The translations under genes were made by a program, and so were the position numbers. 64,000 bases of DNA from assembly GCA_003224055.1 (NCBI GenBank), contig QHYE01000020.1, positions 1-64,000 of the forward strand, in the 5' to 3' direction. This document shows positions 31,721 through 40,773 of this stretch, in pieces. A model generated the notes under the pieces. That model ran no database searches. It had not been told where the DNA came from and saw only the letters and a list, made by a program, of their open reading frames with translations. The stretch comes from Acidobacteriota bacterium. Its GTDB lineage: Bacteria; Acidobacteriota; Terriglobia; Acidiferrales; UBA7541. The stretch's first letter is position 1, and every line of letters starts with the position of its first letter.

Positions 31721-33436
31721 TCACTTCTTCTTTTCGTAGGTGCGGGAGGAAGTAATCCCCTTTCCTTCGGTCACGGTGACGGTTTGACCTGCGGCGATAT
31801 TGGAGAGCCGATCTACCAGGCCGCTGGGCCAGCGAATTTCAACGGTGTCGGCCTTTTCGCGCTGAGCGAGACCAAAGGTCAAAACAAGCTCGCTGGCGGA
31901 AAGATAACTGGAGCCGCTGCGGAGCATCTGTGTTTGTGTTTCCCCGCCGAAAGTAACACGCACCGTCGCTCCCAAGCCATCGCGGTTGGATTTCGTGCCA
32001 ATCAGCTTGATGCGCAGGCTCTTGTTTGACGCTGCAGAGCCTTGTGCATCGTTCCGGAACAGGTATACCGAGCCGCCATTTGTGGAGAGGAGTAGATCCA
32101 GGCGACCGTCATTATTGAAGTCGGCGTATGCGGCACCGCGCCCAACGCGTGCGGTTGCAAATGCGGGGCCGAGCGATTTGGTGACTTCCTCGAATTTTCC
32201 TTTGCCGGTATTCCGGAAGAGATGCGGCGGCATGGCGTATTTCACGTTGGACTGCACGCGCTGAATGTCCGCATCAATATGGCCGTTCGCGACCAAAACA
32301 TCCGGCCAGCCGTCGAGGTCATAGTCAAAGAAAAAGCACCCGAATCCCAGCGTGAGGAGCGACGCGCGGCCGATATCTGAGCGCGGAGCTTCATCGACGA
32401 ACAATCCTTTTCCCTCATTGTGATAGAGAGAAATCATCTGGTTTGAGAAATTGGTGATCAGGAGGCTCGGAAAGCCCGAATGATCGTAGTCGGATGCGTC
32501 CACGCCCATGCCGGCGCGGGCGACTCCGTCTTCGCTGAATGCGATGCCCGCGACGACGGCTTTCTCCGTGAAGGTGCCATTTCCGTTGTTGCGGTAAAGC
32601 TTGTTCGGCTGCGTATCATTCGAGAACAGCAGATCGGGCCAGCCGTCATTGTCGTAATCGAGCACGGCGATGCCCAGCGTTTTCGAGGTCGGCTCGCCGA
32701 GGCCGGCTTTTTGCGCTGCGTCTTCAAAAGTTCCATCGCCGCGATTGTGCCAGAGGCGCACGGAAGAGCCCTTGTAGGATTCCGGCGTGCAGTACGATTT
32801 GCTCTTTCCATCAAGGGTGCAGTAGAGATCCGTCTCCGGCGTCCACTGCACATAATTTCCGACGACGAGGTCGAGGCGGCCATCCCTGTCGTAGTCAACC
32901 CATGCCGCGCTGCTGCTGAATTCCTTCGGACCGAGCAGACCTGCCTTTTGCGTAGCGTCTGTGAAAGTGCCGTTGCCGTTGTTGTGGAACAGATCGTTTT
33001 GACCGTATGCGGTGACGAAGAGATCGTCGTAGCCATCATTGTCGTAGTCGCCCACGGCCACGCCCATCCCGAACAGTTCAACGTCCAGTCCGGCTTTATG
33101 CGTGACGTCCGTGAACGTGCCGTCATGATTGTTGTGGTACAGCTTCGGCGTGGAATGTTTCTGAACTTGGCCCGGCCAGTCCATTCCGTTGACAAGAAAA
33201 ATGTCCGGCCAGCCGTCATTGTCATAATCGATAAAAGCGACGCCCGGCCCCATGGTTTCCGGCAGAAATTTCTTTCCAAACGCTCCATTGTTGTGGACGA
33301 AACGAATCCCAGCCTGCTGCGTAACGTCGCGAAATTGAATCGACGCCGTTTCCGCGGCTGCTCCGATTCCTGTTTGAGTAATGAGAAGCGCTTCCAGCAA
33401 GAAAATAAGAGCAATCGCAAGCGGACGTTTCACCAT
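31721..33436 (-). CDS. CRTAC1-family secreted protein (FG-GAP repeats, ASPIC/UnbV)
   Basis: A 571-residue protein with GGGGGA before the ATG and a signal peptide (LAIALIFLLEALLITQTGIG). The body is a beta-propeller of FG-GAP/VCBS repeats with Ca2+-binding loops of the form DYDNDGWPDIFL, DYDNDGYDDLFV, DYDRDGRLDLVV and FNNDGRLDLLLS. The C-terminal ASPIC/UnbV domain is seen in FGLAQREKADTVEIRWPSGL. It is the last gene of the operon, 11 bases after the AhpD-like gene. A role in binding carbohydrate or protein at the cell surface is typical of propellers, but the function is unproven. Confidence 0.88.
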   Translation of the reverse strand: MVKRPLAIALIFLLEALLITQTGIGAAAETASIQFRDVTQQAGIRFVHNNGAFGKKFLPETMGPGVAFIDYDNDGWPDIFLVNGMDWPGQVQKHSTPKLYHNNHDGTFTDVTHKAGLDVELFGMGVAVGDYDNDGYDDLFVTAYGQNDLFHNNGNGTFTDATQKAGLLGPKEFSSSAAWVDYDRDGRLDLVVGNYVQWTPETDLYCTLDGKSKSYCTPESYKGSSVRLWHNRGDGTFEDAAQKAGLGEPTSKTLGIAVLDYDNDGWPDLLFSNDTQPNKLYRNNGNGTFTEKAVVAGIAFSEDGVARAGMGVDASDYDHSGFPSLLITNFSNQMISLYHNEGKGLFVDEAPRSDIGRASLLTLGFGCFFFDYDLDGWPDVLVANGHIDADIQRVQSNVKYAMPPHLFRNTGKGKFEEVTKSLGPAFATARVGRGAAYADFNNDGRLDLLLSTNGGSVYLFRNDAQGSAASNKSLRIKLIGTKSNRDGLGATVRVTFGGETQTQMLRSGSSYLSASELVLTFGLAQREKADTVEIRWPSGLVDRLSNIAAGQTVTVTEGKGITSSRTYEKKK

Positions 33437-33447
33437 TCCCCCATGAT

Positions 33448-34014
33448 TCAGTCGCGGCCCACGCCGAGCGCGTCTGCCACTTTATTAATGTAGTTGAACC
33501 ACGCGGCGATCAGCGTGATCTGAAGAATCCCTTTGTCGTCGAAGCCGGCGGCTCGCAGCTTCGTGTGGTCTTCCGGGCGGCACATCGTCGCGTCCTTCGT
33601 GAGTTTCACGACGTAGTCCAGCATCGTGCGATCTTGTTCGCTGATCGGCGCGGTCCGATAGTCCTTGCGAAGCGCGTCCACCATCTTTTCATCCAGCGTG
33701 ACCCTACGCAGAAACTCTGCGTGCGATTCGATTCAATAGTGGCACCGGTTGGTTATCGAAACGAGTGTGGCGATCATCTCGTGCTGGCGCCGCTTCAGCG
33801 GAAGGTCGGGAGACAGCATGGCGCCGAACGCCGAAAACGAATGAAAGAGAGCATCGGGAATCAGCGAGTGCGACGCCGTAATACTTTCCGCCTCGCCGCG
33901 ATCGACCGCGGGCGCAGGCGTGCGATACTCCGCCGGATAGAGCTTTCGTTCGTCCTCGATGGCTTTCTTCACGCGCTCGTCTTCGTCCATGCGAAGAGTC
34001 TTGATCCAGGTCAT
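33448..34014 (-). CDS. AhpD-like (CMD-fold) peroxidase-related protein, candidate selenoprotein with CxxU
   Basis: A 188-codon frame with GGAG 8 nt before the ATG at 34014 is interrupted only by TGA at codon 94 (33733-33735). The first part ends [11 protein letters not shown] and the part after the TGA begins [16 protein letters not shown]. In AhpD-like proteins the redox motif here is CxxC (RCxxC-IESHAE), so the TGA sits exactly at the second Cys, giving C91-H-Y-U94. The C-terminal segment [20 protein letters not shown] completes the CMD helical fold. A hairpin consistent with a SECIS element follows the TGA. If recoded, the protein is a thiol/selenol peroxidase-type enzyme. A nonsense mutation is the alternative. 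Confidence 0.7.
33706..33735 (-). promoter_or_regulatory. In-frame UGA plus putative bacterial SECIS hairpin
   Basis: Reading leftward, UGA (33735-33733) is followed after 10 nt by ACGCAGA (33722-33716), loop GUU (33715-33713) and UCUGCGU (33712-33706), a perfect 7-bp stem. The loop begins with G followed by U and lies 17 nt from the UGA; established bacterial SECIS elements have a small apical loop with G among the first two bases, about 16-37 nt after the UGA. Confidence 0.6.
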
Positions 34015-34050
34015 GCGAAGTGCTCCTTGTTTTGGAGTGACGAGGAGGAT

Positions 34051-36936
34051 TTATCGGTAGCCACTGGGCCGAAGTCCTTCCGGAACTGCGGTGCGAGATG
34101 CGGCTTGCCGTGCGGGAACTTTCTTTCGTTGCGCCGGAGCAAGTGCAACGCTGACGTGTTCATGAATCGGCTGCCGTTCGTTGTTATCTTCCGGGTGCGT
34201 CTGGCGGTAGGGTCCAGTAATCGCCTGTGCTGATTCGTCGGCCTTAAAGCGAAGGTAGCGCGTCTTATGCTCGTTCGCTTTGGCATCGTCACCCAGTCCG
34301 TTGTAACAGAGCATCAGGTTGTAATGCGCCTGCAAATCCTCGGGATCGATGGAAAGCGTTTGTTCAAATTCCTTCACGGCGTCTGCGTAGCGCTTCTGAA
34401 GAAACAGAACGCGGCCCAGCTCGTTGCGCACCACACGGTCGCGCGGGAATTGCTCCAGCACCGTCCGCAAGTGAACCATCGCGCCGTCATAGTCGCCATC
34501 TTCTTTGAGGGCTCGGGCGTAGAAGAAGTTTGTCCGCGCCAGCCGCGGGTCGATCGCCAGGGATTTCTCGAGCACTCTTCGCGCACCGGCGGTATCGCCC
34601 TCCTGCACCAAAACGCGCCCGATGTTGGTCCAGCCGTCGGGATTTTGCGGATCGGCTTGCGTGATTTTTTCGAACGCCGCAGCGGCCGCCTTCAAATCAC
34701 CCTGCAAAAAAAGGCCGATCCCGTAGTCGTTCCACCGCGTCCACTCTTCTTTCGTGGAAACGGTCTTCGATTGGGGCGGCGGAGCATTTCGCGGGAGCAC
34801 CAGCAATGTCTTGGTGTCCTCGGCAATGGTGATGATGGGCAGGTCAGGAATCACTTTAAGGTTGCCTGAGACATTCGAGGTGTCGCCGTTGAAATACCAT
34901 TGGCGATCGTCGTAATCCGGCGTGGTGCGAACGCGGCCGCTCAGCTCGGTAACATCTTCCTCCACCCCCGCAAAGGAAAAATGCGTATTGAACCAGCTGA
35001 ACTTCCGATAGTTGAGCTTGGCATGAAGAGTGATCTTGTCGCCCGCATTTTCCGGAATGTGCAGGCGATAGTGCGCCGTATCCGCCGCGCCCGGAGGAAC
35101 GAGGCGGACGTAGACAACGGACCGCGTCGCCCAAGCGTTTCGTTTATTGATGGGATTGCCGTGCCCATCAATCTGAAGCGAGCGATAGAAGTGCGCCCCA
35201 GCCTCAACGGGGCCTTTGCCATTGTCCGCAACCTTGCCACTCCAGAAAATCGTCTGGCCCTTTTCATCGGTGGCTTGCAATTCCAGCCAGGCGTCGAACG
35301 CGTCCACCGTCCCGCCGGGGAAGAAGTGCCCGACCTTGCGCGTACGCACAACGACGTCCACGCGAATGTCATTGCCCCGGCGAACCGCCGCATCCGTGCG
35401 ATCGATGGGCGCGGTGACAGGGCGGACTTCGCCGGCCGGTCCTTTCGGCAATGAGACATCAGATTCTTCGCCGACGGCGAAGGTCGTCGAAAGTTCAGGC
35501 TTCCCCATCTCGGTCCGGACGGGCGCGCCGGCTTCGTTCCCCGCCGGGGAAATCGCGAAGATATCGACGGTCAGTTGCTTATCCTGCAAGAATTTCTTGG
35601 CGAATTCAAATTGCTCCTGGTCCTGATTGGCAGTGGGCACAGCGGTGTTGGCGCCGGGGAAGCGATGCGAATGCACCAATCCTTTGATGTTGCCAGCGTC
35701 GTTCGACGGCACCTGGGGCATGTGGCAGTCCGCGCAATTCATTGGCGCCTTTGGATAATAGAATGCGCGAGCGCCCTGTCCGGAAACCCCGCTGGCCTGC
35801 CAGTTATCGTATTCATTGAAGCCGCGAATCCAGCGATAGCGATTCACCGCGACATCCAGGTGCACCTTGTGACAGGAAGAACAGAACTCCGCCGTGTCCG
35901 CGCGCATGAACGGCTTGAGAAACGTACGGCGGTGCGGCTCGGGGTTCAGGCGAACCAGGAAGTCGTGGAGCGAACGGACCACCGGATTTTCGCTAGCCGC
36001 CAGTTCATGAAGCTTCGGGTACTCCAGGAAAAAATCACCCTGGCCCATAGTGCTTTTCACTTGCACGATGCTGTGGCACATCAGGCATCCGAGACCCGCG
36101 CGGGCTTCCGGACGGCCCACAATCTGTTTGATCGGCGTATCGAACAAGCCGCTGTAGAGCAGCGCCGGATCGTGGCAACCGGCGCACCATTTCGACGACT
36201 TCACGCCCGCGACTTCCTGCATGTACTCGATGCTCTTGCGGTACCACTGGTTGTTGAAAGAAGAAAAATGGTGGACGGAACTATCCCACTGTTTGTAGAT
36301 GTCGGCGTGGCAGCGCTGGCAAGCATCGGACTGCATGAAATATTTTGACGGGATGTTGCCGCCATGTTTGGTCTGCGCGGAGCTGGGGAAAAATTTGCCT
36401 TGCGGCCCGTCGCCCTCGCCATTCATCGTCTCCGGCGGCATCAGCGGGTTTGAAATGCGGTTCGCTTTTTGCCATGCGATCTCGCGAGTCCACCAGGCGC
36501 CTGCTGCTATTCCCGCAGTCAAGAGCAGTAGCGCAACGGATCCCAAGCCGCGTTGGGCCGCGCCACTGCCCAGCCATCCGCGTGACGCCAGCCACGACGC
36601 AAACAAGCACAATGCCCCGGACATGCATATCGCGATGTGAGCGTACAGCCAGGACTTCAAATGACTCGGTGTACCAATCTTGATCAGCACGACGCCGAGA
36701 ATCGCCCCCACAGCCAGGAAGATCCAGCCAAAGCGCGCCAGTAACCCCTCGCTTCGGAGCAGACGAAAAAGAGCGAGACCCAGCAGAACGGAAAAAACGA
36801 TTCCGGCCGCAACATGAAACAAAACCACAATTCCAAAGGAAATCGTCGCCGAGGGATACGCGTACAAATAGACAGCGCTCGCCGCAAGCGCAATCAAGCT
36901 TCGCGATAACCAACGCTTCTGAGTTTCAATCGCCAT
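34051..36936 (-). CDS. Pentahaem cytochrome c membrane protein with C-terminal TPR repeats
   Basis: A 961-residue protein from the ATG at 36936. About four N-terminal helices are followed by an extracytoplasmic domain with five CxxCH haem sites: CQRCH (206-210), CAGCH (251-255), CLMCH (284-288), CSSCH (352-356) and CADCH (401-405). A beta-rich domain follows, then TPR units (NPDGWTNIGRVLVQEGDTAG; AIDPRLARTNFFYARALKED; DRVVRNELGRVLFLQKRYAD). The haem part resembles multihaem cytochromes of the NrfA/c554 type. It probably carries electrons across or along the outer face of the membrane; the TPR part would recruit partners. It is 36 bases upstream of the AhpD-like gene. Confidence 0.9.
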   Translation of the reverse strand: MAIETQKRWLSRSLIALAASAVYLYAYPSATISFGIVVLFHVAAGIVFSVLLGLALFRLLRSEGLLARFGWIFLAVGAILGVVLIKIGTPSHLKSWLYAHIAICMSGALCLFASWLASRGWLGSGAAQRGLGSVALLLLTAGIAAGAWWTREIAWQKANRISNPLMPPETMNGEGDGPQGKFFPSSAQTKHGGNIPSKYFMQSDACQRCHADIYKQWDSSVHHFSSFNNQWYRKSIEYMQEVAGVKSSKWCAGCHDPALLYSGLFDTPIKQIVGRPEARAGLGCLMCHSIVQVKSTMGQGDFFLEYPKLHELAASENPVVRSLHDFLVRLNPEPHRRTFLKPFMRADTAEFCSSCHKVHLDVAVNRYRWIRGFNEYDNWQASGVSGQGARAFYYPKAPMNCADCHMPQVPSNDAGNIKGLVHSHRFPGANTAVPTANQDQEQFEFAKKFLQDKQLTVDIFAISPAGNEAGAPVRTEMGKPELSTTFAVGEESDVSLPKGPAGEVRPVTAPIDRTDAAVRRGNDIRVDVVVRTRKVGHFFPGGTVDAFDAWLELQATDEKGQTIFWSGKVADNGKGPVEAGAHFYRSLQIDGHGNPINKRNAWATRSVVYVRLVPPGAADTAHYRLHIPENAGDKITLHAKLNYRKFSWFNTHFSFAGVEEDVTELSGRVRTTPDYDDRQWYFNGDTSNVSGNLKVIPDLPIITIAEDTKTLLVLPRNAPPPQSKTVSTKEEWTRWNDYGIGLFLQGDLKAAAAAFEKITQADPQNPDGWTNIGRVLVQEGDTAGARRVLEKSLAIDPRLARTNFFYARALKEDGDYDGAMVHLRTVLEQFPRDRVVRNELGRVLFLQKRYADAVKEFEQTLSIDPEDLQAHYNLMLCYNGLGDDAKANEHKTRYLRFKADESAQAITGPYRQTHPEDNNERQPIHEHVSVALAPAQRKKVPARQAASRTAVPEGLRPSGYR

Positions 36937-37116
36937 TAAGTCCGCCCGCGGGCGGTTTCCGCATAATACGACAGCGGCCGGATGTCTGAGTAACATCCGG
37001 CCGCAATTCAGTTTGGGGTGCCTCGAAGCAAGCCGTGCAAAGCTCGATGGGAGGCGGAGCTACTATTGCGGTCATTTATATGGTTCGAGATTCGAGCTGG
37101 CAATACTGTAAAACCA

Positions 37117-38814
37117 CTAGAAGCCCGATTGCACCTCTATCCCTTTTGTTTCCAAGCATTTATAGGAACTTCCAGTGCGAAGCTCTTTGTATTCTTCGGT
37201 ACGGCCGCTGGGCCAGTCAATTACCATGCGATCGATCTTGTCGCGTGTGCCGAGTCCAAATGTGATCGGCAACTCCGACTGGGAAAGATAGCTGGAACCA
37301 CCTCGAACCATTCTCGATTGTGTTTGCCCCTCATAGAAAATGCGAGCGGAAGCGCCGATGGCGTCGCGGTTGGACTTCAACCCTCGCAAGTAAAATCGAA
37401 TGCTGCGATGGCGCTCTACCTGATCGTTCCGGTACAGATACGCTGGACCATTGTTCGTTGTCATCAGGATGTCCAGATCGCCGTCGCGGTCGAAATCTCC
37501 GTACGCAAGTCCTCGCCCCACTTTCGGCGTTTCGAATCCGCCGCCAGCGCCCTCCGCTACATCTCGAAACTTTCCGCCGCCTCGGTTCAGGAAGAGTTGC
37601 GGAGGTTCCGCGTATCCGGTGTTCCCCCGAATGTTTCGAACGGTCTCATCAATGTGGCCATTGGCGACCGCCAGGTCCAGAAAACCGTCGAGGTCCACGT
37701 CAAGAAACATGCAGCCAAACCCGAGGCTATTTCGCGACGCAGCTCCGACTCCGGAGAGGATGGAGACATCGTCGAAAAGTTCCGGAGCATTCAAGCGATA
37801 TAGCCCGATCATCTCGTTGTCAAAGTTGGTGATGGCTACTCCGGGTTTGCCGGAGTTTTCGAAATCTCCGATGTCCACACCCATTCCCGCGCGCGCTTTT
37901 CCTTCCGTGCTGAAAGCCAGGCCAGCTTCCACGGCGACATCCTTGAACTTGCCGTTGCGCAAGTTGCGATACAGTTTGTTGGGTTGCGTGTCGTTTGCGA
38001 CGAGCACGTCCGGCCAGCCGTCCTGATCGTAGTCGAACATCGCCACGCCCAGCGATTTTGAACTACTGTCAAAAATTCCGCTCGTCGCCGTTACGTCTTC
38101 AAAGGTTCCGTTGCCCCGGTTGTGGAAGAGCCAGCAGGTGTCGCCGCGGTAGGCTTCCGGCGTGCAATACGACTTGTGCGTGCCGTCAAGGCTGCAGAAC
38201 ACATCTTGTTCCGGCGACCAGCGCACGTAGTTGCACACGAAGAGGTCCAGTAGGCCATCGCGATCGTAGTCAAGCCAGAGCGCCGAAGTGCTGAAGCCCC
38301 GGTGCCCGAAGAGGCCGCTCACGCGCGTCGCATCCACAAAAGTTCCTTTGCCGGTATTGCGAAAAAGGCGGCTCTGCCCCACGCAGGTGATGAAAATGTC
38401 AGGAAATCCGTCGTTGTTGTAGTCGCCGACAGCCACACCCATGCCGTACATCTCGATATCCAGGCCCGCGCTTCGCGTCACATCGGTAAACGTGCCGTTG
38501 CGATTGTTCCGGTAAAGCCGGAGAGAGGATCGCTGGCGTTTGTGTCCGGGCCAGTCCGATCCGTTGACGAGAAGAATGTCTTGCCAGCCATCGCCATCGT
38601 AATCGAGGAATGCACAACCAGAGCCCAGGGTCTCGGGGAGGAGCTTGCCACCGTAACCGCCACTGTTGTGCCGGAACTGAATGCCCGCCACGGCAGTCAC
38701 GTCCGAAAAGCGAAACGTGAGTCCGGGGATCGATTGTTTTTGCGAACGCGCTGGAGTTAACGCAGCTGCAAGACCGGTCGCGCAGGCGCCCAACAGGAAA
38801 TCCCGTCGAATCAC
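37117..38814 (-). CDS. CRTAC1-family secreted protein with Tat-like signal
   Basis: A 565-residue paralogue of the protein at 31721-33436. The GTG start overlaps the stop of the response-regulator gene (GTGA), so translation is coupled. The N-terminus MIRRDFLLGACATGLAAALT has a twin-arginine-like signal. FG-GAP repeats with Ca2+ loops recur (LDYDGDGWQDILLV, DYNNDGFPDIFI, DYDRDGLLDLFV, FDRDGDLDILMT). The ASPIC/UnbV domain lies at the C-terminus (FGLGTRDKIDRMVIDWPSGR). It is followed after 180 bases by the pentahaem gene. Confidence 0.88.
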   Translation of the reverse strand: MIRRDFLLGACATGLAAALTPARSQKQSIPGLTFRFSDVTAVAGIQFRHNSGGYGGKLLPETLGSGCAFLDYDGDGWQDILLVNGSDWPGHKRQRSSLRLYRNNRNGTFTDVTRSAGLDIEMYGMGVAVGDYNNDGFPDIFITCVGQSRLFRNTGKGTFVDATRVSGLFGHRGFSTSALWLDYDRDGLLDLFVCNYVRWSPEQDVFCSLDGTHKSYCTPEAYRGDTCWLFHNRGNGTFEDVTATSGIFDSSSKSLGVAMFDYDQDGWPDVLVANDTQPNKLYRNLRNGKFKDVAVEAGLAFSTEGKARAGMGVDIGDFENSGKPGVAITNFDNEMIGLYRLNAPELFDDVSILSGVGAASRNSLGFGCMFLDVDLDGFLDLAVANGHIDETVRNIRGNTGYAEPPQLFLNRGGGKFRDVAEGAGGGFETPKVGRGLAYGDFDRDGDLDILMTTNNGPAYLYRNDQVERHRSIRFYLRGLKSNRDAIGASARIFYEGQTQSRMVRGGSSYLSQSELPITFGLGTRDKIDRMVIDWPSGRTEEYKELRTGSSYKCLETKGIEVQSGF

Positions 38815-39440
38815 GGCAGCGTGACCAGGCCGTTGCGAATGGCGTAGACCACGAGTTCCGCAGTCTTGTGAATTCCAAGCGTATCCATGATGTTGGCGCG
38901 ATGAACGGCTACGGTATTCGCGCTGAGGTTCAGTTCCGCAGCAATTTCCTTGTTGGATTTGCCGGCGACGATATGCTGCAGGATTTCCAGTTCGCGCGGC
39001 GTCAATCCGCCCACACGCTCCCCCCGCAAATTCTCCGGGCGGGACACTTGCGGATCGAGCACGGTCATGCCCCCCGCCACGCTCTTCACCGCATTCACGA
39101 GATCGAGATCCATGGCATTTTTCAGAACATAGCCGCGCGCACCGGCATCGAGTGCCTGGCCCACGAGGGTTTCCTCGGAATGCATGCTCAACATCAGGAT
39201 TTCCGCTTCCGGAAATTTCTCCAGGATTTTGCGCGTGGCTTCGATGCCGCTCAGCTCCGGCATCGCGCAGTCCATAACGATCACCTTCGGCCGCAATTCG
39301 AGGGCGAGACGCACGGCCTCCTTGCCGGTGCTGGCTTCTCCGACGACGGAGATTTCCGCGTCGTCCTCCAGCATGCGGCGGAATCCGCGCCGGACGAGCG
39401 CGTGATCGTCGACAAGCAACACTGTGATTTTATGCGCCAT
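38811..39440 (-). CDS. NarL/FixJ-type response regulator
   Basis: A 209-residue protein from the ATG at 39440. The receiver domain has the acidic pocket (VLLVDDHALVRRG), the phospho-acceptor Asp in VIVMDCAMPELSG, and a later Lys in YVLKNAMD. The LuxR-type HTH is at the C-terminus (LTPRELEILQHIVAGKSNKE, NTVAVHRANIMDTLG). It overlaps the histidine kinase gene by 11 bases and the CRTAC1 gene by 4, so the three are one translation-coupled unit. It probably controls this operon or related extracytoplasmic redox genes; its targets are unknown. Confidence 0.92.
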   Translation of the reverse strand: MAHKITVLLVDDHALVRRGFRRMLEDDAEISVVGEASTGKEAVRLALELRPKVIVMDCAMPELSGIEATRKILEKFPEAEILMLSMHSEETLVGQALDAGARGYVLKNAMDLDLVNAVKSVAGGMTVLDPQVSRPENLRGERVGGLTPRELEILQHIVAGKSNKEIAAELNLSANTVAVHRANIMDTLGIHKTAELVVYAIRNGLVTLP

Positions 39441-40773
39441 GGACTTCCGCTTTATCCCGAGGGACCTCAAGCCGCACGAGCGTGCCGCCTGGTCCGCGGG
39501 GCGATACCGCCAGCACGCCGCCTATCAGTTCGGCGCGTTCGCGCATGGCTACGAGCCCAATCCCTCGTTGCATTTTTTCCGCCACAAAGCCTGTGCCATG
39601 ATCCTCCACCTCGAGCTCCAGAGAATTCGCGGAAAACTTCAGCCGGATCCACGCTTCGCGCGCTCCGGAATGCCGGCTCACATTATTCAGCGCTTCCTGC
39701 AGCACCCGATAGACGTGCACGCCTGCGCCTGTTTCCACGGGGAAGGGCTTCCCGGTCTTCTCATAGTGCAGCGTAAGGCCCGCCTGGTGCTCCACAGTGG
39801 GAATATACCAGTCCAGAGTGCTCTCCAGCCCCGCCTCTTCGAGAAGAACTGGATGCAGGGCTTGGGAAAGCGTTCGAATTTTGTTCAATGTCGATTGCGC
39901 GATTCCTTGTACTTCTTTCAACTCCTCGCGGGGAGGCGATCCTTCCGGCAAGTGATTTCCAGCGCGGCGCAATATGGACCCGATCGCGGTCAAGACCTGG
40001 CCAAACTCGTCGTGCAGTTCACGGGAGATATGCCGCAGAGTCGATTCTTGTGTCGAGATCAGTTTTTGCGCCAAATCGCTCCGCTGTTCGGAGAGTTCTG
40101 CAAGTCGCGCAAAAATCTGCTTGTTGCTGCGGATGAGATAAAGGCTGGTCGCAGCAATCGCAATCAGCGTTGCCGCCAAAAAAATGTAGAGCTGGCGCTG
40201 CACCCCATCGTAAATCTGAGCGATGCGTGCCGCGGCTTGTTCTTCGCCTTCGTTATTCTCCACCAGGAGCCGCGAAACAGCCGTGCTGAGAGCTTGCTGG
40301 CGCGCCTGAAGCGACAGTCGGATCTGCTCCCGCGCTTCGGCCTCTTTGCCGCTTTGTGCCAGCGCGAACATCCGCTTCACCGCGTCCCAGAACTGCGACA
40401 GCGATTGTGCCAGGTACTGCCGCTGCTCCGGTGTACGGTTTACCACCGCGAGGCCCTCTTCGAGTTTGAGGCCGGCATCCAGATCCTGATGAATGCGGTC
40501 GAACTGGGCCGACCAGGCTGTTAGAGGATATGGCTCTGTGGTGTCCAGCATGTCGCGCATCGCGAGCGCGATCGAATTCAAATCGTTTTGAATTCGCAAG
40601 AGCTGCAGAGAGTCTCTCCGGTTCCGGTCGACCATTTCACTTTGCAGCTTTCGTAGGCCGGTGAGCTGCGCCGTGATGTAATACGCATAAGCCAGCACGG
40701 CCGCGAGCGTGATCACCAGCCCCAGCAATAGTCCAGTCGTTGGCGAGCGTTGCGAGGAAGCGGCATTGTGCAC
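39430..40773 (-). CDS. Membrane sensor histidine kinase (NarX/HisKA_3 type)
   Basis: A 447-residue protein. Helix 1 (LLLGLVITLAAVLAYAYYIT) and helix 2 (LYIFLAATLIAIAATSLYLI) flank an extracytoplasmic helical sensor region of about 170 residues with no known ligand site. The HisKA_3 dimerisation box is TLRHISRELHDEFGQVLTAI, where the second His is the likely phosphate acceptor. ATP-binding boxes are visible as ALNNVSRHSGA, VEDHGTGF and GIGLVAMRERAELIGG. It pairs with the response regulator encoded 11 bases overlapping downstream. Confidence 0.92.
   Translation of the reverse strand: MHNAASSQRSPTTGLLLGLVITLAAVLAYAYYITAQLTGLRKLQSEMVDRNRRDSLQLLRIQNDLNSIALAMRDMLDTTEPYPLTAWSAQFDRIHQDLDAGLKLEEGLAVVNRTPEQRQYLAQSLSQFWDAVKRMFALAQSGKEAEAREQIRLSLQARQQALSTAVSRLLVENNEGEEQAAARIAQIYDGVQRQLYIFLAATLIAIAATSLYLIRSNKQIFARLAELSEQRSDLAQKLISTQESTLRHISRELHDEFGQVLTAIGSILRRAGNHLPEGSPPREELKEVQGIAQSTLNKIRTLSQALHPVLLEEAGLESTLDWYIPTVEHQAGLTLHYEKTGKPFPVETGAGVHVYRVLQEALNNVSRHSGAREAWIRLKFSANSLELEVEDHGTGFVAEKMQRGIGLVAMRERAELIGGVLAVSPRGPGGTLVRLEVPRDKAEVHGA

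Follow-up and report, generated by a model that had tools for sequence, protein, structure and literature searches.

The locus and its neighbours

The window, by which we mean the whole 64,000-nucleotide stretch of acidobacterial DNA that was analysed, carries on its minus strand a frame that runs from ATG to a terminal TGA and contains exactly one internal stop, also a TGA, at codon 94 (Table 1). Standard ORF calling breaks this one predicted selenoprotein gene into two pieces of 93 and 78 residues. The sequence-only reading had described a single frame of 188 codons with one internal TGA, and its coordinates and numbers hold; the strand, absent from that account, is minus. Its placement of the TGA at the second Cys of an AhpD-type CxxC also stands, as codon 94 completes a CxxU motif of the AhpD/CMD type and solved relatives have Cys at this position. 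The codon for His98 overlaps the base of a hairpin that follows the TGA.

Table 1. Features of the predicted selenoprotein locus in window coordinates
Feature	Positions	Strand	Basis
Sec-AhpD-like gene, ATG to terminal TGA, 188 codons/residues, predicted Sec94	34014..33448	minus	frame reading, PF02627 and TIGR01926
In-frame TGA, codon 94, taken as selenocysteine	33735..33733	minus	conservation among orthologues
SECIS-like hairpin, 7-bp stem, loop GUU	33706..33722	minus	synonymous-site conservation, covariation
Shine-Dalgarno-like AAGGAG, 8 nt 5' of the ATG	34023..34028	minus	read directly
Cys91, opening Cys of CxxU (Cys130 in M. tuberculosis AhpD)	33742..33744	minus	invariant; spacing compared with PMC3141380
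Glu79, proton-relay residue (Glu118 in M. tuberculosis AhpD)	33778..33780	minus	invariant; spacing matches AhpD and PA0269
His98, proton-relay residue (His137 in M. tuberculosis AhpD)	33721..33723	minus	invariant; codon CAC in 79/80
Upstream gene, cytochrome c554-like / TPR protein	34051..36996	minus	Pfam
Downstream gene, FG-GAP / UnbV_ASPIC protein, 11-nt gap	31721..33436	minus	Pfam

Most gp2 acidobacterial loci, that of the window among them, have the Sec gene between a cytochrome c554-like/TPR gene and an FG-GAP/UnbV_ASPIC gene on the same strand, and the loci with this arrangement form one group on the tree (support 86/97). An APC-type amino-acid permease gene lies directly upstream in approximately 21 of the 80 GTDB loci and downstream in two (L052 and L055); the permease-adjacent loci include many from Pyrinomonadaceae and Blastocatellia, as well as records titled Planctomycetota, Gemmatimonadaceae and Latescibacterota. 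Both kinds of partner are positional associations.

Several further features of these neighbourhoods were recorded. The cytochrome/TPR and selenoprotein genes of the window are flanked by two FG-GAP/UnbV_ASPIC paralogues that are approximately 57% identical (31721-33436 and 37117-38814, minus strand); a gene for a response regulator of the LuxR type sits beside this cluster at 38811-39470. Outside gp2, the APC permease (AA_permease_2) recurs in L117-L166 (for example, L121:2607-3938 on the plus strand) and at L052:2756-3991, L055:598-1905 and L174:7-771. In the tree, one GTDB record titled Betaproteobacteria (L098) is placed among the gp2 orthologues from acidobacteria, and its title is probably wrong.

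Decoding of the internal TGA codon

The host genome (4.5 Mb, 95.6% complete) encodes all four components of selenocysteine decoding that had been named for checking: tRNA-Sec (58 bits; called by ARAGORN as SeC(tca), anticodon TCA), selB (356 bits), selA (560 bits) and selD (353 bits). Among the 36 genomes with close orthologues, 32 have a tRNA-Sec over the cut-off, and three of the remaining four have selA. In G025 the TGA is present, yet neither selA nor tRNA-Sec was detected in an assembly that is 85% complete and spread over approximately 800 contigs.

The codon itself is conserved across the phylum. In a set of 101 genomes made up of the host plus relatives, each of the 36 close homologues (64-91% identical to the window copy, which is itself among the 36) has a single internal stop, and in every case this is TGA. 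A phylum-wide draw of 247 genomes yielded 21 further TGA copies, two of them in one genome, along with one stop-less orthologue, giving TGA in 57 of the 58 whole-genome orthologues of the two sets together. The GTDB collection was scanned with a close alignment (A3), a broad one (A2) being too diverse for the purpose, and TGA is present in 80/80 loci, these being the best 80 of 285 related loci; the whole-genome and GTDB sets share organisms and are overlapping rather than additive. The alignment of homologues that the sequence-only reading had proposed thus returns TGA in the orthologues, or Cys where Sec decoding is missing, and the selenium form is nearly universal among orthologues in Acidobacteriota. 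A decaying or nonsense-mutated AhpD-like gene, in which the TGA is a true stop and the 3' part a relic, is an extremely improbable account of such a pattern. TGA does act as an ordinary stop elsewhere, including at the end of this very gene, but the same internal TGA recurs in all orthologues but one, even at 58% identity, the frame before and after it being intact and free of TAA and TAG, in a host whose Sec machinery is complete, and its phylum-wide conservation weighs decisively against a pseudogene.

The hairpin, ACGCAGA-GUU-UCUGCGU, starts 10 nt and its loop 17 nt 3' of the UGA, and on re-reading the positions given earlier for a perfect 7-bp stem with a GUU loop proved exact. It has the small apical loop containing G that is a common feature of bacterial SECIS elements (PMC1088965). 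An Rfam search of the hairpin region gave no SECIS match, and a single-sequence fold of the region is no better than shuffles (z = -1.0). When this protein stretch was recoded synonymously 20,000 times, a perfect stem of at least 7 pairs at the same distance, with a G among the first two bases of its loop, arose in 56 of the recodings; 65 of 20,000 random coding sequences had such a stem. The 17-mer has no second exact copy in the host genome; a near-copy with 2 mismatches at C52:8510 is not preceded by an in-frame TGA at a suitable spacing and appears to be a chance occurrence.

Comparison among orthologues is more telling about this element. Across the 80 GTDB orthologues, codons +4 to +9 have a synonymous diversity of 0.04, and none of the 135 codon windows lies lower (median 0.55), while the codons flanking the hairpin, +3 (Ser) and +10 (Arg), vary freely at approximately 0.75. 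Seventy of the 80 share an identical 18-nt core, CACGCAGAGTTTCTGCGT, and among the ten variants six stay paired through G-U wobble and four lose only the basal pair. When paralogues are included, giving 55 Sec genes, pairing holds in 95.8% of stem cells, compared with 20-63% in slid controls, and ten paralogue sequences carry a compensatory swap from C-G to G-C at one pair. Two-sided change is confined to this 1 of the 7 pairs, the remaining pairs varying one-sidedly or merely by unpaired cells, and two shuffle measures, pair count and pair types, were not exceeded (477/500). By these comparative data, conservation of the stem is far in excess of protein-coding demand; the hairpin that the sequence-only reading had pointed out is kept at synonymous sites among orthologues.

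Loss of selenocysteine offers a further view of the codon. The stop-less orthologue, from genome G112 (L174, G112:C125; 58-59% identity), is the sole Sec-to-Cys orthologue found, with TGC (Cys) at the Sec position. Its motif is TRYC, the first Cys being also gone (TxxC for CxxU), and its hairpin region, CACACGGAGTTCCTGACG, no longer forms the stem. Neither selA nor tRNA-Sec was found in this genome, which is 99% complete and in which a tRNA-Ser scores highest against the tRNA-Sec model; the codon for Sec, the hairpin and the machinery of decoding are thus all missing together. A distant paralogue (L070, G088:C29:44891-45334) has TGG (Trp) for TGA and an altered stem, and here Sec has probably been lost although the G088 genome retains tRNA-Sec. 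More distant Cys paralogues with SSYC or DSYC motifs have no such hairpin at the corresponding place. Readthrough of the TGA as Trp or a near-cognate amino acid, with no selenium involved, would agree with the TGG of L070, which suggests that Trp has been tolerated here on at least one occasion. Such readthrough is nonetheless very improbable, as the orthologue in the genome that lacks the Sec machinery has Cys and not Trp, Cys also occupies the position in solved relatives, and the SECIS-like hairpin is conserved in the TGA genes and missing from Cys paralogues.

Taken together, three independent lines, namely machinery, codon conservation and the hairpin, indicate that the TGA is very probably decoded as selenocysteine. 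SelB and tRNA-Sec would decode the UGA at codon 94 under the guidance of the hairpin, which lies within the frame 10 nt downstream.

Other CMD genes with an in-frame TGA were seen along the way. Three loci (L060, L063 and L068) hold two different CMD selenoprotein genes in convergent orientation, one of the HAEFLR type and one of the HGEDLR type, and both genes of a pair carry a TGA and a hairpin of their own. In Acidobacteriota, L081, L082 and L087-L091 are CMD paralogues with a CPFU motif, a TGA and GC-rich hairpins (HAAVAAE and HSAGAAE types).

Protein family, active site and probable chemistry

The readthrough protein matches the Pfam CMD family PF02627 (3.4e-8) and the NCBIfam model TIGR01926, 'peroxidase-related enzyme', at 104.3 bits (cut-off 81.8). 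The score against AhpD sensu stricto (TIGR00777) is 21.5 bits, under the cut-off of 191.95, and the score against NF041238 (AhpD_rel_CFYUT), 52.3 bits under a cut-off of 175, places the protein outside that family. A confident AlphaFold model (pLDDT 93.9) finds its best PDB match in the AhpD of D. radiodurans (6k40, E 1.6e-8). Together with the peroxidase-related structures 2pfx, 3c1l, 2prr and 2oyo, this AhpD makes up the top structural and sequence matches, which share the same helical fold; in the alignments with 2pfx and 3c1l, Cys stands where the acidobacterial protein is predicted to have Sec.

Within this fold, Glu79, Cys91, Sec94 and His98 are invariant across 41 Sec proteins and conform to the catalytic frame Glu-x11-Cys-x-x-Cys/Sec-x3-His with spacings of 12, 3 and 4, together with Tyr93. 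The proton relay consists of Glu36, Cys48, Tyr50, Cys51 and His55 in PA0269 and of Glu118, Cys130, His132, Cys133 and His137 in M. tuberculosis AhpD (PMC3141380). Relay spacing in the Sec protein matches both exactly, with Sec94 at the position of Cys133. The M. tuberculosis enzyme is a weak match overall (E about 0.05) and differs in having His132 for Tyr93 and Cys133 for Sec94.

The gene is thus very probably that of a TIGR01926/COG2128 AhpD-like selenoprotein, in which UGA94 would be decoded as Sec by SelB, tRNA-Sec and the in-frame hairpin to complete an AhpD-type redox centre. The candidate AhpD-like CxxU selenoprotein with a SECIS-like hairpin that had been put forward from the letters of the DNA is accordingly supported by machinery, orthologue codons and hairpin conservation alike. 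Its product would adopt an AhpD-like fold with a redox centre formed by Sec94, Cys91, Glu79, Tyr93 and His98. By homology, the selenolate would most likely attack and reduce a hydroperoxide or another small electrophile, Cys91 would resolve the intermediate by forming an Se-S bond, and the enzyme would be reset by a thiol donor of the cell. We found no measured activity in the literature for a Sec member of the AhpD-like family.

A Sec enzyme that is not mainly a peroxidase, acting instead as a thiol-disulfide adaptor or a Bmp8-like dehalogenase, would be compatible with Sec decoding, and we regard it as a possibility of somewhat less than even standing. Classic AhpD is an adaptor for AhpC, and the peroxidase activity of the relative PA0269 is only weak (PMC3141380); the fold search weakly matched the Bmp8 debrominase; the neighbours vary by lineage, with cytochrome/UnbV genes in gp2 and an amino-acid permease elsewhere; and no ahpC occurs among the immediate neighbours scanned in the window. 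On the other side, the closest solved relatives are annotated as peroxidase-related. A more specific proposal, which we consider unlikely, is that the nearly obligate selenoprotein and the adjacent permease form a module that reduces or detoxifies an imported amino-acid-like substrate, rather than serving general peroxide defence, and that this module has been re-wired to the cytochrome/UnbV cluster in gp2.

Relation to known selenoproteins

AhpD-like selenoproteins do have the marine-metagenome precedent that the sequence-only reading had named. A 2005 survey of the Sargasso Sea contained 27 AhpD-like COG2128 CxxU sequences (PMC1088965), Global Ocean Sampling gave 299 Sec and 902 Cys forms for the whole COG (PMC2398784), and a 2026 review enters such proteins under TIGR01926 (PMC13188914). 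As this type has been known since 2005, the acidobacterial gene would be a well-supported member of an already described one; our literature search, of partial coverage, found no paper on an AhpD-like Sec family in Acidobacteriota.

The resemblance to the marine 'AhpD-like 1' selenoproteins of the Sargasso and Global Ocean Sampling data lies in the TIGR01926 model, the CxxU motif and a downstream stem-loop with G in its small apical loop. The acidobacterial group, compared with them by family model and description, differs in coming from soil Acidobacteriota and a few records of other phyla, in being almost exclusively Sec whereas the whole marine COG holds both forms, and in having a hairpin whose sequence is nearly frozen. 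With the CMD-like PF02627 CxxU selenoprotein and NF041238 (PMC1088965, PMC13188914) it has the superfamily and CxxU in common, the NF041238 family not being matched.

Since ORF calling splits the gene in two, a selenoenzyme widespread in soil Acidobacteriota is likely to have been missed in annotation. Furthermore, with its hairpin almost frozen and just one natural switch from Sec to Cys, in G112, this group offers a clean case for studying the strictness with which SelB reads its signal and the changes that accompany the loss of selenocysteine.
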